Source: Prochlorococcus sp. AG-442-B03 (GTDB lineage Bacteria > Cyanobacteriota > Cyanobacteriia > PCC-6307 > Cyanobiaceae). Taken from it: a DNA stretch of 64,000 nt. The stretch is taken from contig QCPU01000001.1 of the NCBI GenBank assembly GCA_003212395.1, positions 1-64,000 on the forward strand. Reading direction: 5' to 3'. Under the pieces are notes generated by a model, which did no database searches, was not told the origin of the DNA, and saw nothing but the letters and a program-made list of their open reading frames with translations. Below, piece after piece: positions 41,474 to 44,568 of the stretch. The first letter of the stretch is position 1. Each line of letters opens with the position of its first letter. The translations under genes were made by a program, and so were the position numbers.

Positions 41474-42703
41474 CTAAGATAACAAACGAAGGTTTATGAA
41501 ATCTACGATTTTCTGACTTGCTCCGGATTCCCCCATTCTTTTTTGTCCAATTTTTGCTTGTTCTAACCTATAAAATTTTTCTTTTAAAAGTAAACTTAAA
41601 CGTTTTAAAAGAATTTTTTTATTCTTGCAGACTAATACACTACCTCCCAATAATCTTGATTGCCTTTTTGCGAATGCTTTTGTAAATTGTGGTCCAGAAC
41701 CAGGTAGAGAAAGAGATGGAATTCCAAGGCCAGCAATTTGCTCTGTAGCAGTTCCTGCATTAGACAAGCCAACTTCTGCCATATTTGCCCATAAATTGAA
41801 TTTACCTTTTCCAATCACTACATATTGATCTTTCTTTTTCCATACTGAATCTTCATCAATTAAAAATTTAACTTTACTCTGTTTTATAAAACCATATTTA
41901 TTTAAATAACTTTGAATTTGAATCACACTAGCATTAAGGCTCAAAGGCAAAAGTATTAACAAATTCTCTGATAAATGAAAATCTTGCAAGCAATCAAGAA
42001 AATTATCAAGATTTTTAAGAGCTTCAGGGTATCTACTTCCAACTAATAAAATAATCCTTTTAAAAGAAATAATATTTGATATCTTATCGTTTGTTGGATT
42101 AACAAAATCCATCATTGGATTACCCAAGTATTTTGCATCAATATTTTTTCTATTCAAATTATTAGCTGTAATTTTATCTCTCATAATTAAATTTTTACAT
42201 CTTGGAGATTTCATTAAAAACATTTCCCATGGATCCCATTCAGAACCTTTCAACTTATGATAAAAATCGCTTATATCCCAACTTGGTCCACTACTCCAAG
42301 TATGATCACTTTTTGGAGTTCCAATGAAACTAAATTCGCATTCTGAACTCCAAGCGTAAAATAATGGCAATAAATCTCCTACTGCGATAATTTTGCAGTT
42401 ATATTTTGACTTTTGTTTTACAAGTAAAAAATTTCTTAAATTATCAATTAAAAATCCTGCAAACAAATCAAGCAAAAATCCCTTCAGACTTTGATTACTA
42501 AAACCTCCACTAGGCAGCTCTTTTAAATATCCTATTTTACGAAAATTATTGGATTTTATGGAATTAAATACATCTCCATTGCCTACTAAAGGCAAAACTT
42601 CAATATTTTTATTTCGTATTTTTTTTAGTAATCTTTTTATTATTTCAGATGCGATAACATCTTCTCCATGGCCATTGCATATAAATAGTAGAGAATGAGA
42701 CAC
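41474..42703 (-). CDS. LpxB-related glycosyltransferase-like protein
   Basis: A protein of about 409 residues of the lipid-A-disaccharide-synthase-related group. FICNGHGEDVIASEII near the N-terminus, VGDLLPLFYAW, GSGPQFTKAFAKRQ and AEVGLSNAGTATEQIAGLGI are the donor/acceptor-site-type motifs. Start is GTG at 42703. The open frame upstream runs through the antisense of a tRNA-Cys gene and is not coding. It may be a membrane-lipid or surface polysaccharide enzyme; substrate unknown. It is divergent from tRNA-Cys. Confidence 0.75.
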   Translation of the reverse strand: MSHSLLFICNGHGEDVIASEIIKRLLKKIRNKNIEVLPLVGNGDVFNSIKSNNFRKIGYLKELPSGGFSNQSLKGFLLDLFAGFLIDNLRNFLLVKQKSKYNCKIIAVGDLLPLFYAWSSECEFSFIGTPKSDHTWSSGPSWDISDFYHKLKGSEWDPWEMFLMKSPRCKNLIMRDKITANNLNRKNIDAKYLGNPMMDFVNPTNDKISNIISFKRIILLVGSRYPEALKNLDNFLDCLQDFHLSENLLILLPLSLNASVIQIQSYLNKYGFIKQSKVKFLIDEDSVWKKKDQYVVIGKGKFNLWANMAEVGLSNAGTATEQIAGLGIPSLSLPGSGPQFTKAFAKRQSRLLGGSVLVCKNKKILLKRLSLLLKEKFYRLEQAKIGQKRMGESGASQKIVDFINLRLLS

Positions 42704-42745
42704 CTTACTGTTAAGATCGTAAAAAGACTCAATCGAATCTTTTTC

Positions 42746-42816
42746 GGCGGCATGGCCAAGTGGTAAGGCAGAGGATTGCAAATCCTTTATCCCCAGTTCG
42801 AATCTGGGTGCCGCCT
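42746..42816 (+). tRNA. tRNA-Cys (anticodon GCA)
   Basis: The acceptor stem GGCGGCA pairs with TGCCGCC. The loop TTGCAAA has anticodon GCA, closed by GAGGA/TCCTT, and the T arm contains AGTTCGAATCT. The discriminator is T and no CCA is encoded. Its T arm and 3' end recur at 43534-43559, so this gene looks to be the attachment site of an integrated element. Confidence 0.96.
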
Positions 42817-42817
42817 T
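42792..42817 (+). repeat. attL-like repeat (3' part of tRNA-Cys)
   Basis: The 26 bases from CCCAGTTCG to CCGCCTT at the tRNA 3' end are repeated in the same orientation at 43534-43559 with a single mismatch (G to A at the 19th base). Such a partial tRNA duplication is the hallmark of site-specific integration at a tRNA gene. Confidence 0.7.
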
Positions 42818-42902
42818 TTTCAAACCAACCAATATATTCTCTGAAATCCTTTGCAGAATCAAGAGTTTTGAATATCGGTTAGTGTATTTCAAATGTTTAT
42901 TA

Positions 42903-42924
42903 CTGGTAGGAAACTGGTAGGAAA
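42903..42924 (+). repeat. Tandem 11-bp repeat CTGGTAGGAAA, two copies
   Basis: CTGGTAGGAAA at 42903-42913 and again at 42914-42924, 86 bp inside the tRNA-side border. The motif TGGTAGGAAA recurs in tandem at 43458-43479. This is suggestive of recombinase arm-type sites. Confidence 0.65.
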
Positions 42925-42987
42925 ATTACTTCACTAACTTAATAAAATATTATCGCATCAATATTCTTCATAGTTAAATTAGATTAT

Positions 42988-43371
42988 TTATTTATTTTCA
43001 ATATGATCAAGCAAACTTTTTGCTAAGGAGAAATCTGGATCTAATTTCAGAGAGATTGATAAATCTTTAGTTGCTTGTTGATATTTTTTCATAACTTCAA
43101 ATGCAAAACCTCTCCAGAAAAATAAATAAGCATTATGAGGGTCTATTTCAATTGCTTTGTTGTAATCAATAATCGCATCTCCATACCTACTTAAGAATAT
43201 TTTTGTATTACCTCTTAGATCATATGCCTCTACAATACGATTTTTATTGATAGGCAAATAACTCAGTTCTAATGCATTATCAAAATACTCTAATGCAATT
43301 AAATATGCTTCACACTCTTTTAATACCTTCCCTAATTCAACATATTCATTAAATTTAAAAAATTTATTCAC
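42988..43371 (-). CDS. TPR-repeat protein within the tRNA-Cys island
   Basis: A 127-residue protein made of about three tetratricopeptide repeats. Y-A/I-x-x-x-D-Y-x-x-A-I-x-x-D-P patterns are visible, e.g. RYGDAIIDYNKAIEIDPHNA (about residues 63-82). There is no signal peptide. Such proteins act as protein-binding scaffolds; partner unknown. It is the only gene between the tRNA-Cys gene and its partial copy, so it is likely an accessory cargo gene. Base composition is similar to the rest of the window. Confidence 0.75.
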   Translation of the reverse strand: MNKFFKFNEYVELGKVLKECEAYLIALEYFDNALELSYLPINKNRIVEAYDLRGNTKIFLSRYGDAIIDYNKAIEIDPHNAYLFFWRGFAFEVMKKYQQATKDLSISLKLDPDFSLAKSLLDHIENK

Positions 43372-43457
43372 TTTTTTAAATAAATTTATTTTAAATGCAA
43401 TTTTTCCTACCTTAATTATATAGAAATAGATTGAAAGTAAATATTCAACCCATCTAA

Positions 43458-43479
43458 TGGTAGGAAAGTGGTAGGAAAG
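43458..43479 (+). repeat. Tandem 11-bp repeat TGGTAGGAAAG, two copies
   Basis: TGGTAGGAAAG at 43458-43468 and 43469-43479, 54 bp before the partial tRNA copy. It shares TGGTAGGAAA and the 11-bp period with the pair at 42903-42924, in the same orientation. Confidence 0.65.
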
Positions 43480-43533
43480 TTTCTATTTTGATCTCAAAAA
43501 ATTCAATTATAGATTGATTTTTGCAATACAAAA

Positions 43534-43559
43534 CCCAGTTCGAATCTGGGTACCGCCTT
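43534..43559 (+). repeat. attR-like partial copy of tRNA-Cys
   Basis: Twenty-five of 26 bases match the tRNA-Cys T arm and acceptor 3' end at 42792-42817. The mismatch (A for G at 43552) would break one acceptor pair, so it does not encode a working tRNA. The flanking 5' bases (TTTTTGCAATACAAAA) only weakly recall the tRNA anticodon region. Confidence 0.7.
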
Positions 43560-43670
43560 CTTTAATTTTTTTACACGTCTAATTATGAAATTTTCGAAAA
43601 ACTTTAGTTTCAAATAAAGGGCAAAAAGTTTCAATTACTTATCGTTATTTATAGAAAATAATCTTATATT

Positions 43671-43769: not shown

Positions 43770-43937
43770 TTAGTAATCATTATCTGCTACACACATTCCT
43801 AAACATCTAACACCATTTGATGCAGTCCTTTTGCAATGATTACATAAAATAGGATCTTTTTCTAAAGGAAGGTTAATTTTTGAATTATTATGATCCTTTA
43901 AACCAATTAACTCTTGTGTTGAATTAAATAGAGCCAT
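43770..43937 (-). CDS. Small Cys-rich conserved hypothetical
   Basis: A 55-residue product beginning MALFNSTQELIGLKDHNN. Its C-terminal part has CNHCKRTASNGVRCLGMCV, four cysteines in a CxxC...CxxxC pattern that could bind zinc or an Fe-S cluster. ATG 43937 overlaps the end of the upstream gene by 14 bp. The family is not recognised and function is unknown. A longer frame upstream to 43982 is less likely. Confidence 0.6.
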   Translation of the reverse strand: MALFNSTQELIGLKDHNNSKINLPLEKDPILCNHCKRTASNGVRCLGMCVADNDY

Positions 43938-44568
43938 TCTTAGAATCATCACTTGAGTCGATACTAACAACAAGTGGAGCATTTGTGTTGGAAGAAGGTA
44001 TATCCATGATTTTTACAGTTTCTTTGGGCTCTTCAATAATTTTATTTTCTTTAGTATTCTCATCAACTGCACATGCTTCAAGCGCCTCTCGAAGCAGTGA
44101 ATCAAAAGTTGCTCCAGGCAATCTATGTCTAGCAACTTCAAGAAAAGTTCTCGGTAACGATTCAGATGCAGCATCTCGTAAAGCAGGATTATTCTTTCTA
44201 TGATCTTGTTCTTCTTCTATTGATTTAATAAACCTCAGTGTGACATCTCTTTTGGTAGAGGCTTTTATCAGCGTATCGTTTTCAGGATTACTAACATTAG
44301 GTTCATTTTCAAGATCACTAAGTCTTTTTTCCAAACTATTTAAGACTTCATTAGCTTCTTTACTAATATGCGCTAATTGACCATCGGACAAATTAGGTAA
44401 ATCAGCGACAAAAACTTTCCCATGATCCCTTAGTGTCAAGAAAGTTGGTCTTGGACCTTGAGCCTGTCTACCACTCAATTCGGAATTATTAGCTATTAGT
44501 CTTTTTGGAGGTGTAGGGCCAGCTGAACTACGTCTACGTGTAATTCTTTGATTATTTGCAAAGGGCAT
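43924..44568 (-). CDS. Conserved hypothetical protein, 214 residues
   Basis: Not recognised. The N-terminus is basic and Ser/Pro-rich (NNQRITRRRSSAGPTPPKR). A charged, helical middle has coiled-coil character (LNSLEKRLSDLENEPN), SLPRTFLEVARHRLPGATFD is a distinctive segment, and the C-terminus is acidic and disordered. There is no membrane segment. It lies next to purM on the same strand with a 132-bp A+T-rich spacer between them. Confidence 0.7.
   Translation of the reverse strand: MPFANNQRITRRRSSAGPTPPKRLIANNSELSGRQAQGPRPTFLTLRDHGKVFVADLPNLSDGQLAHISKEANEVLNSLEKRLSDLENEPNVSNPENDTLIKASTKRDVTLRFIKSIEEEQDHRKNNPALRDAASESLPRTFLEVARHRLPGATFDSLLREALEACAVDENTKENKIIEEPKETVKIMDIPSSNTNAPLVVSIDSSDDSKNGSI

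Follow-up and report, generated by a model that had tools for sequence, protein, structure and literature searches.

A recombinase-less 742-bp unit at tRNA-Cys of Prochlorococcus as a probable non-autonomous integrative element

Results

A 742-bp unit between two copies of the tRNA-Cys 3' end

We analyzed a 64,000-nt stretch (the window) of a Prochlorococcus-like genome (G000; 1.49 Mb, 93% complete) in which a tRNA-Cys gene is followed by a 742-bp unit. Sequence comparison leads us to regard this unit, with a probability of roughly two in three, as a complete non-autonomous integrative element that has att sites at tRNA-Cys, arm repeats at both ends and one cargo gene, and that would be mobilized in trans. 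Its architecture, the empty and occupied sites, the matched arms, the lack of an integrase, the larger relatives and the spread between lineages are all evident from comparison among genomes. The features of the locus, in window coordinates, are as follows.

41474..42892, minus strand: lipid-A-disaccharide synthase-related gene (TIGR03492), its frame running antisense through tRNA-Cys into the element
42746..42816, plus strand: tRNA-Cys (gca), called by ARAGORN; integration target, with the attL core at its 3' end
42792..42817, plus strand: left core repeat (attL core), direct repeat
42817..42892, minus strand: left end of the element, reading as N-terminal module (KYTNRYSKLLILQR...) for the antisense TIGR03492 gene
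42904..42924, plus strand: left arm pair, two tandem 11-bp units TGGTAGGAAA(N)
42988..43371, minus strand: sole cargo gene, 127-aa TPR protein (TPR_1, E 1.1e-14)
43403..43412, minus strand: inverted third arm copy AGGTAGGAAA, one mismatch, 55 bp before the right arm pair
43458..43478, plus strand: right arm pair, two tandem 11-bp units TGGTAGGAAA(N)
43534..43559, plus strand: right core repeat (attR core), direct repeat with one mismatch; displaced 3' end of the target
43560..43634, minus strand: displaced chromosomal version of the N-terminal module, now behind attR, of the type found in empty sites
43770..43982, minus strand: conserved flanking gene, 70 aa, right anchor, overlapping 43924-44568
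43924..44568, minus strand: conserved flanking gene, 214 aa, right anchor

The sequence-only reading had described a recurrence of the tRNA-Cys 3' end about 740 bp downstream, enclosing one TPR gene, paired 11-bp repeats and no recombinase, and all of this holds. The two core copies lie on the same strand, 742 bp apart from start to start, and match over 26 bp with a single mismatch (32 nt at 91%); by the ARAGORN end, the core comprises the last 25 tRNA bases plus one. The 11-bp unit TGGTAGGAAAN forms a tandem pair inside each core copy, and the TPR gene starts with GTG in the window element and with ATG in its relative in G199. There is no recombinase gene inside the window element, nor was any relative of the tRNA-Cys integrase described below found in the 93% complete G000 genome. 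Promoter-like sites between 42700 and 43700 numbered 4, vs 6.8 in shuffles, and a PADLOC scan of four cargo proteins and one integrase for defense functions returned no match.

Occupied and empty sites in relatives

With two mismatches allowed, the tRNA-Cys end was found as a pattern in 150 of 200 genus genomes and in at least two copies in 23 of them. We compared 24 one-core genomes, mostly near-complete and hand-picked from 127. In 15 of these, the very first base of the window's right flank already aligns immediately after the tRNA-Cys core, so that the tRNA is joined straight to the flank as anticipated for an empty site; the other nine carry an element-type left end followed by extra or changed DNA, with no clear right end. 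At occupied sites, 27 elements of 190-9508 bp were delimited in 26 genomes. Twenty-one of these genomes came from the two-copy list, where G157 and G187 could not be delimited; in both, the core copies are split over separate contigs, and what the contig ends reveal of the arms is of a single type. The other five were reached through the integrase (G238), an arm scan of genome_contigs (G269 and G271) and an arm search (G029), or taken from the one-core sites on account of a weak second core (G129); G137 holds one further weak core copy.

Larger, integrase-bearing elements at tRNA-Cys, the other variant that the sequence-only reading had led us to look for, are represented by G155 (7131 bp), G173 (9508 bp), G238 (9458 bp) and G269 (6582 bp). 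Presence at a fixed position in all relatives without any integrase-bearing variant is thus excluded by the empty sites and these larger elements. Indeed, the proposed footprint of a tRNA-targeting integrative element is supported by empty sites, occupied sites, arms and integrase-bearing relatives: the tRNA 3' end is duplicated where empty sites exist elsewhere, and regularly spaced arm repeats lie inside both ends. Only these 4 of the 27 delimited elements encode the integrase, so that integrase-less elements outnumber integrase-bearing ones at tRNA-Cys by 23 to 4; likewise, no integrase relative was detectable in 21 of the 23 genomes with at least two tRNA-Cys ends, many of which are incomplete.

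Integrase-less elements carry one to three ORFs of at least 60 aa, or none in four cases, and their cargo includes TPR proteins, zinc-ribbon membrane proteins and small, possibly exported proteins. A single polysaccharide-export gene is the cargo in five (G003, G023, G029, G109 and G192; L096, L098, L100, L106 and L016), as identified by the Poly_export/SLBB Pfam profiles in G029 (L016) only and by similarity in the others. The arms of these five are of the GGACAGC type at the right ends and, except in L016, at the left ends, some of them eroded; such elements possibly constitute a surface-variation cassette. Two further 629-bp elements (L107 and L108), 97.7% identical and with good arms, lack an ORF of at least 60 aa, and their cargo may be a small RNA or a peptide. 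The smallest units, of 197 bp in G153 (L101:569-785) and 190 bp as the second unit of G060 (L094:1894-2103), retain both cores and one arm pair. They look like deletions by recombination between left and right arm pairs and are in this respect comparable to solo LTRs. The cultured strain MIT 9302 (L021) carries an element of 1107 bp. A further unit stands beside the first at some sites (G060, G078, G269 and G271). In Prochlorococcus AG-363-B04, the right core of the element is followed by another left end, with different, GGAATGTG-type arms (L164:8505-8650), and therefore tandem arrays occur at the tRNA-Cys site.

Arm pairs are rare, regularly spaced and matched within elements

A single 10-mer with one mismatch is not rare: seven occur in the window, and 36 of 100 shuffles reach as many. 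The tandem pair GGTAGGAAANNGGTAGGAAA, with up to two mismatches, occurs at two places only in the whole G000 genome, and its backwards control at none. Across 200 genus genomes, the arm pattern with one mismatch matched in six, the window genome included, and in all six at a tRNA-Cys end. In 6/6 Prochlorococcus loci, 109 bp separate the core start from the start of the left arms, and the right arms lie 79-81 bp before the right core in the four of four loci with a clear right end. A tandem score of at least 8/10 was reached at both ends by 21 of the 27 elements, and by 60 of 3000 windows at random places in the same loci, some of these windows falling on real arms. Full-score arms at both ends are present in the window element, G144 and G271.

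About seven arm types were distinguished across elements (TGGTAGGAAA, TGGTAGGTGA, GGGCGGTAAG, GGACAGCAAG, GGTCGGCAAG, GGATGGTAAG and GGACGGT). Both ends of one element carry the same type, and types differ between elements. With two elements shorter than 250 bp left out, the mean within-element arm mismatch was 0.25 over 25 elements vs 0.40 with right ends shuffled, a value reached in 0 of 10,000 shuffles. The same outcome (0/10,000) was obtained for the 21 integrase-less elements (0.26 vs 0.41) and for the 14 of them found by the tRNA end alone (0.27 vs 0.42).

Conservation of the arms relative to the remainder of the ends depended on the class. In five integrase-less elements of the TGGTAGGAAA class, arm positions were 98% (left) and 99% (right) conserved vs 54% and 66% elsewhere in the ends, with 0/180 and 0/174 shifted masks, respectively, reaching these values; this test is biased, because all five elements were met through the arm pattern (four via the one-mismatch search, one via the exact search). 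The GGACAGC class, found without arms, showed no such contrast (40/171 and 25/180 shifted masks), and the GGGCGGT class, of four members including one with integrase, showed it at the right end only (54/180 left, 2/173 right). A poor arm pair was scored in 6 of the 21 integrase-less elements above 250 bp vs none of the four with integrase, and decay is thus real in this family. From their place and pairing, we infer that the repeats are candidate arm-type binding sites of an integrase.

Similar arms also turned up outside the family. In Chlorogloea, Leptolyngbya and Chroococcus (L023:1562-1582, L026:5443-5463 and L033:1122-1142), tRNA-Pro(cgg) is followed at 119-121 bp by the same tandem TGGTAGGAAA pair, which adjoins a PF00589 integrase gene; the protein tested, that of Chlorogloea, contains an Arm-DNA-bind_2 domain. 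This likeness may be due either to convergence or to shared arm recognition. The 390-aa Chlorogloea integrase was considered as a helper and rejected upon finding no relatives in 266 genus genomes, a weak search run without a positive control. Four more exact tandem matches were recorded in unrelated bacteria, namely Lactiplantibacillus, Gilvimarinus, a Chlamydiae MAG and a Spartobacteria MAG (L022, L027, L029 and L031), with no tRNA gene in the 8-kb stretches that contain them.

The integrase of the larger relatives

The integrase of the four larger elements is 459-473 aa long and reads inward from the right end of the element; three of the four also encode a serine recombinase. In profile searches, the G155 protein matched nothing in Pfam up to E 0.05 and nothing in PHROG; that of G269 matched nothing in NCBIfam and a single PHROG profile, at E 0.049. 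Alignment of 24 full-length integrases revealed invariant R290, R396, H397 and Y434, together with K318 in 23 of the 24 (G298/G269 numbering). We read these five positions as the putative active-site residues of a tyrosine recombinase that has no first histidine, which agrees with the residues listed in PMC10187409.

Eight of 266 genus genomes contain a relative of this integrase, as do 35 of 300 family genomes, where some of the relatives are fragments. Just upstream of every one of the 24 full-length genes lies the 3' end of either tRNA-Cys (14) or tRNA-Phe (10), and a tandem arm pair stands beside 23 of them, G212 being the exception with no clear pair. From the integrase-side pair to the core, the distance is mostly 80-83 bp at tRNA-Cys (104-114 bp in three) and 111-112 bp at tRNA-Phe. 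Of the four larger elements, that of Prochlorococcus AG-363-B04 (L164, 6582 bp) combines the arm type of the window element, its left units reading CGGTAGGAAA, with an integrase and a serine recombinase; the small genes next to its integrase may include one for an excisionase. No other integrase-bearing element with these arms was found, and this one (G298, identical to the G269 element) comes from a different genus of the family and from a cell that does not harbor a mini-element.

A picocyanobacterial mobile element defined by a new tyrosine integrase, which sits at tRNA-Cys or tRNA-Phe and in many cases close to a small serine recombinase, is described in PMC10187409. Judged by this description, the integrase of the larger relatives probably belongs to that family: the sites agree, as do the missing Pfam match (G155), the serine recombinase in three of four elements and the conserved R, K, R and Y (PMC10187409). 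In viral_contigs, the exact arm pattern was found in 0 stretches, and neither the AG-363-B04 integrase nor the TPR protein had a confirmed relative there. Similarly, 50,697 phage records yielded no match of that integrase (tblastn) or of the window element (blastn); these negatives denote absence in those collections at that sensitivity only.

Spread between lineages without an integrase gene

The window element and its G199 counterpart, which has lost the right core, are 94.2% identical over 657 bp, in coding and non-coding DNA alike, whereas the flanks of the two genomes are only 75.3% (left, tRNA excluded) and 78.8% (right, over 9.4 kb) identical. Elements at 94% between flanks at 75-79% identity therefore argue for spread without an integrase gene; on this comparison, the G000 and G199 copies share an ancestor that already lacked one. 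Two further pairs show the same contrast. G144 and G271 elements are 88.1% identical over 370 bp and 80.7% over 1042 bp in total vs 68.5% in the left flank, with no right flank found, and the element ends of G025 and G006 are 89.3% identical over 168 bp vs 77.7% and 73.9% in the flanks. Related hosts carry dissimilar elements in G109/G192 (81% vs 90-94%), and there is little contrast between element and flank in G064/G168 and G029/G192. Homologous recombination could have carried the unit, and integrase loss could have been recent and independent.

The left end reads as coding sequence of an antisense gene

The TIGR03492 gene is open on the minus strand through the whole of tRNA-Cys and 25 codons beyond, to 42892, and the TIGR03492 profile begins at residue 69. 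N-terminal regions of this protein are named here NRYSKL or KAAPRFELGIKDLQSSALPLGHAA. In this frame, the left ends share the consensus ..NRYSKL..LERF..N.V..LKKAAPRFE (36 sequences matched the pattern, which missed variants in G023 and G173; G269, with another version, was left out). Empty sites carry a different module version (LKLYTLYLKLKFLENF), and other genera have RKRDLIIEFLQL (RKRDL) or LATRYTWSI versions.

Among codons of the left ends differing by one base, the synonymous fraction was 0.468 vs 0.202 expected, the highest ratio of the six frames; it was 0.65 vs 0.21 for RKRDL (5 distinct sequences) and 0.57 vs 0.23 for LATRY (10 distinct). The tRNA-attached module copies have no stop in 51 of 51, whereas 5 of 29 displaced copies behind the right core do (Fisher p = 0.005, only indicative with related genomes). 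A stop also falls inside the match in a few family members, for example, G384, G430, G337 and G288, and in the empty-site flank another frame scored a higher synonymous ratio despite stops in 26 of 26. For the left ends, the excess of synonymous changes in a single frame argues for coding and against the alternative that they are conserved as an integrase-binding feature. Together, these data suggest that the left end of the element probably supplies the 5' coding part of the antisense TIGR03492 gene. Translation of this gene apparently proceeds in frame across the antisense strand of tRNA-Cys, and mobile elements seem to provide exchangeable N-terminal modules for it.

Discussion

Mobilization in trans and its alternatives

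According to the mechanism that we infer, a larger relative present in the same cell would provide, in trans, a tyrosine recombinase of the picocyanobacterial tRNA-Cys/tRNA-Phe family, which would bind the arms and the core, excise the unit and then reinsert it; upon insertion, the left end would replace the 5' coding part of the TIGR03492 gene. Such an insertion would spare two overlapping host genes.

The most serious competitor, though clearly the less probable account, is that an integrase-bearing element at tRNA-Cys lost its integrase and most of its genes by deletion and is now immobile. Decay is indeed visible elsewhere in the family: at least one arm pair is poor in G029, G129, G137, G109, G183 and G023, the 197- and 190-bp units resemble arm-pair deletions, the G199 copy is missing its right core, and the nine one-core sites with no clear right end may be counted here as well. 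What speaks against decay for the window element is the full-score arms at both ends, as in G144 and G271, the left-right matching of arms among the 21 integrase-less elements (not reached in any shuffle), and the common ancestor with G199, already integrase-less and yet spread. The sequence-only reading had left the choice between a decayed remnant and a minimal cargo unit mobilized in trans. We favor the latter for the window element because both arm pairs are intact and the G000/G199 ancestor was already devoid of integrase; the former is less favored here and applies to other members. In our reading of these sequences, window-type units would remain usable by an integrase acting in trans, with others in the family decaying.

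Alternatively, the element could be moved by the resident 389-aa tyrosine recombinase (PF00589; G000 C16, L019:11887-13056), the only PF00589 match in G000. This protein is at hand, because it is encoded in G000 and in 98 of 100 genus genomes, including 76 of 76 near-complete ones. However, it is the product of a core gene, whereas about seven arm types go with individual elements, and matching arms stand beside a different integrase. Moreover, with up to two mismatches the tandem pair occurs nowhere else in G000, and in the 14 kb around the 389-aa gene there is one arm match, with four mismatches and 2.9 kb away; we thus deem this explanation very improbable. Chance or non-mobile duplication of the tRNA end by slippage or illegitimate recombination, conceivable as a general possibility, is practically discounted by the empty sites, the different cargo at the same junction in related genomes, the repeated arm geometry and the integrase-bearing versions.

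A possible cassette economy

Gene travel between Prochlorococcus cells is only partly known. We tentatively propose, with nearly even chances of being right, that picocyanobacterial tRNA-Cys hosts an integron-like cassette economy: recombinase-less one-gene units would bear an address code, made of tandem 11-bp arms of several types, that integrases encoded by larger elements passing through would read in trans. The units would line up in tandem arrays, exchange cargo while keeping their conserved ends, and come with their own replacement N-terminus for the antisense gene, thereby preserving two overlapping genes. Units below 2.5 kb and without a recombinase would escape island finders based on integrases, and the arm pairs offer a handle for finding both such units and the helper of each. 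In addition, the coding module at the left end suggests a way of inserting where a tRNA and a protein gene on the opposite strand overlap while breaking neither.

Comparison with known systems

Among titles and opening lines of abstracts, our literature search returned nothing on integrase-less elements or arm sites at picocyanobacterial tRNA-Cys, some of which the tycheposon paper may cover. Tycheposons, reportedly described by Hackl et al. in Cell in 2023, have Prochlorococcus, tRNA sites and cargo genes in common with the window element. They are quoted as 4-200 kb long with a tyrosine recombinase (PMC10872708). The window element has 742 bp and no tyrosine recombinase. The tycheposon label, mentioned by the sequence-only reading, is therefore unsupported, because the element is far below that size range (PMC10872708) and its larger relatives have an integrase that fits a family set apart from the integrases of tycheposons in PMC10187409. 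With the element of PMC10187409 itself, the present ones share the host group and the two tRNA sites; that element is defined by its integrase, whereas the window element has neither integrase nor serine recombinase in its 742 bp, and the parts of the source known here contain no arm sites, exact ends, integrase-less units or antisense gene.

The ssrA islands of Dehalococcoides, 16 with an integration module and 15 without in the parts of PMC3146451 known here, are like the present elements in tandem and bounded by repeats of an RNA gene end, but depend on a serine recombinase system and, in those parts, have no arm sites. CIMEs, as portrayed in the available parts of PMC5704250, keep their att sites, lack integration and transfer genes and occur in tandem with other elements at one site. 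The window element likewise retains attL and attR and has no integration or transfer genes. Yet CIMEs are described as arising by decay and as liable to be trapped in tandem when another element arrives (PMC5704250, same parts), whereas here a single one-gene unit has spread between lineages, with arms matched without an integrase in cis. The unit was also considered as a MITE, a class marked by terminal inverted repeats, a target-site duplication and scattered copies; this assignment was rejected given that its ends are direct repeats of the tRNA end and that, within G000, its arm pair occurs at this locus only.

Integron cassettes rely on an attC site and IntI. Like the window element, they and CALIN are small recombinase-less units at one site that can be moved in trans (PMC11389934, in the parts available). 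The present ends differ from theirs in being tRNA-type att sites with arm pairs on both sides. Integrative elements that target genes restore the coding end of their target gene; here a target end would be restored likewise, in addition to the tRNA. Collectively, integrase-less elements bounded by att sites are already known, and the unit described here, with its well-defined attachment sites, is a non-autonomous, single-cargo variant at the site of a reported recombinase family.
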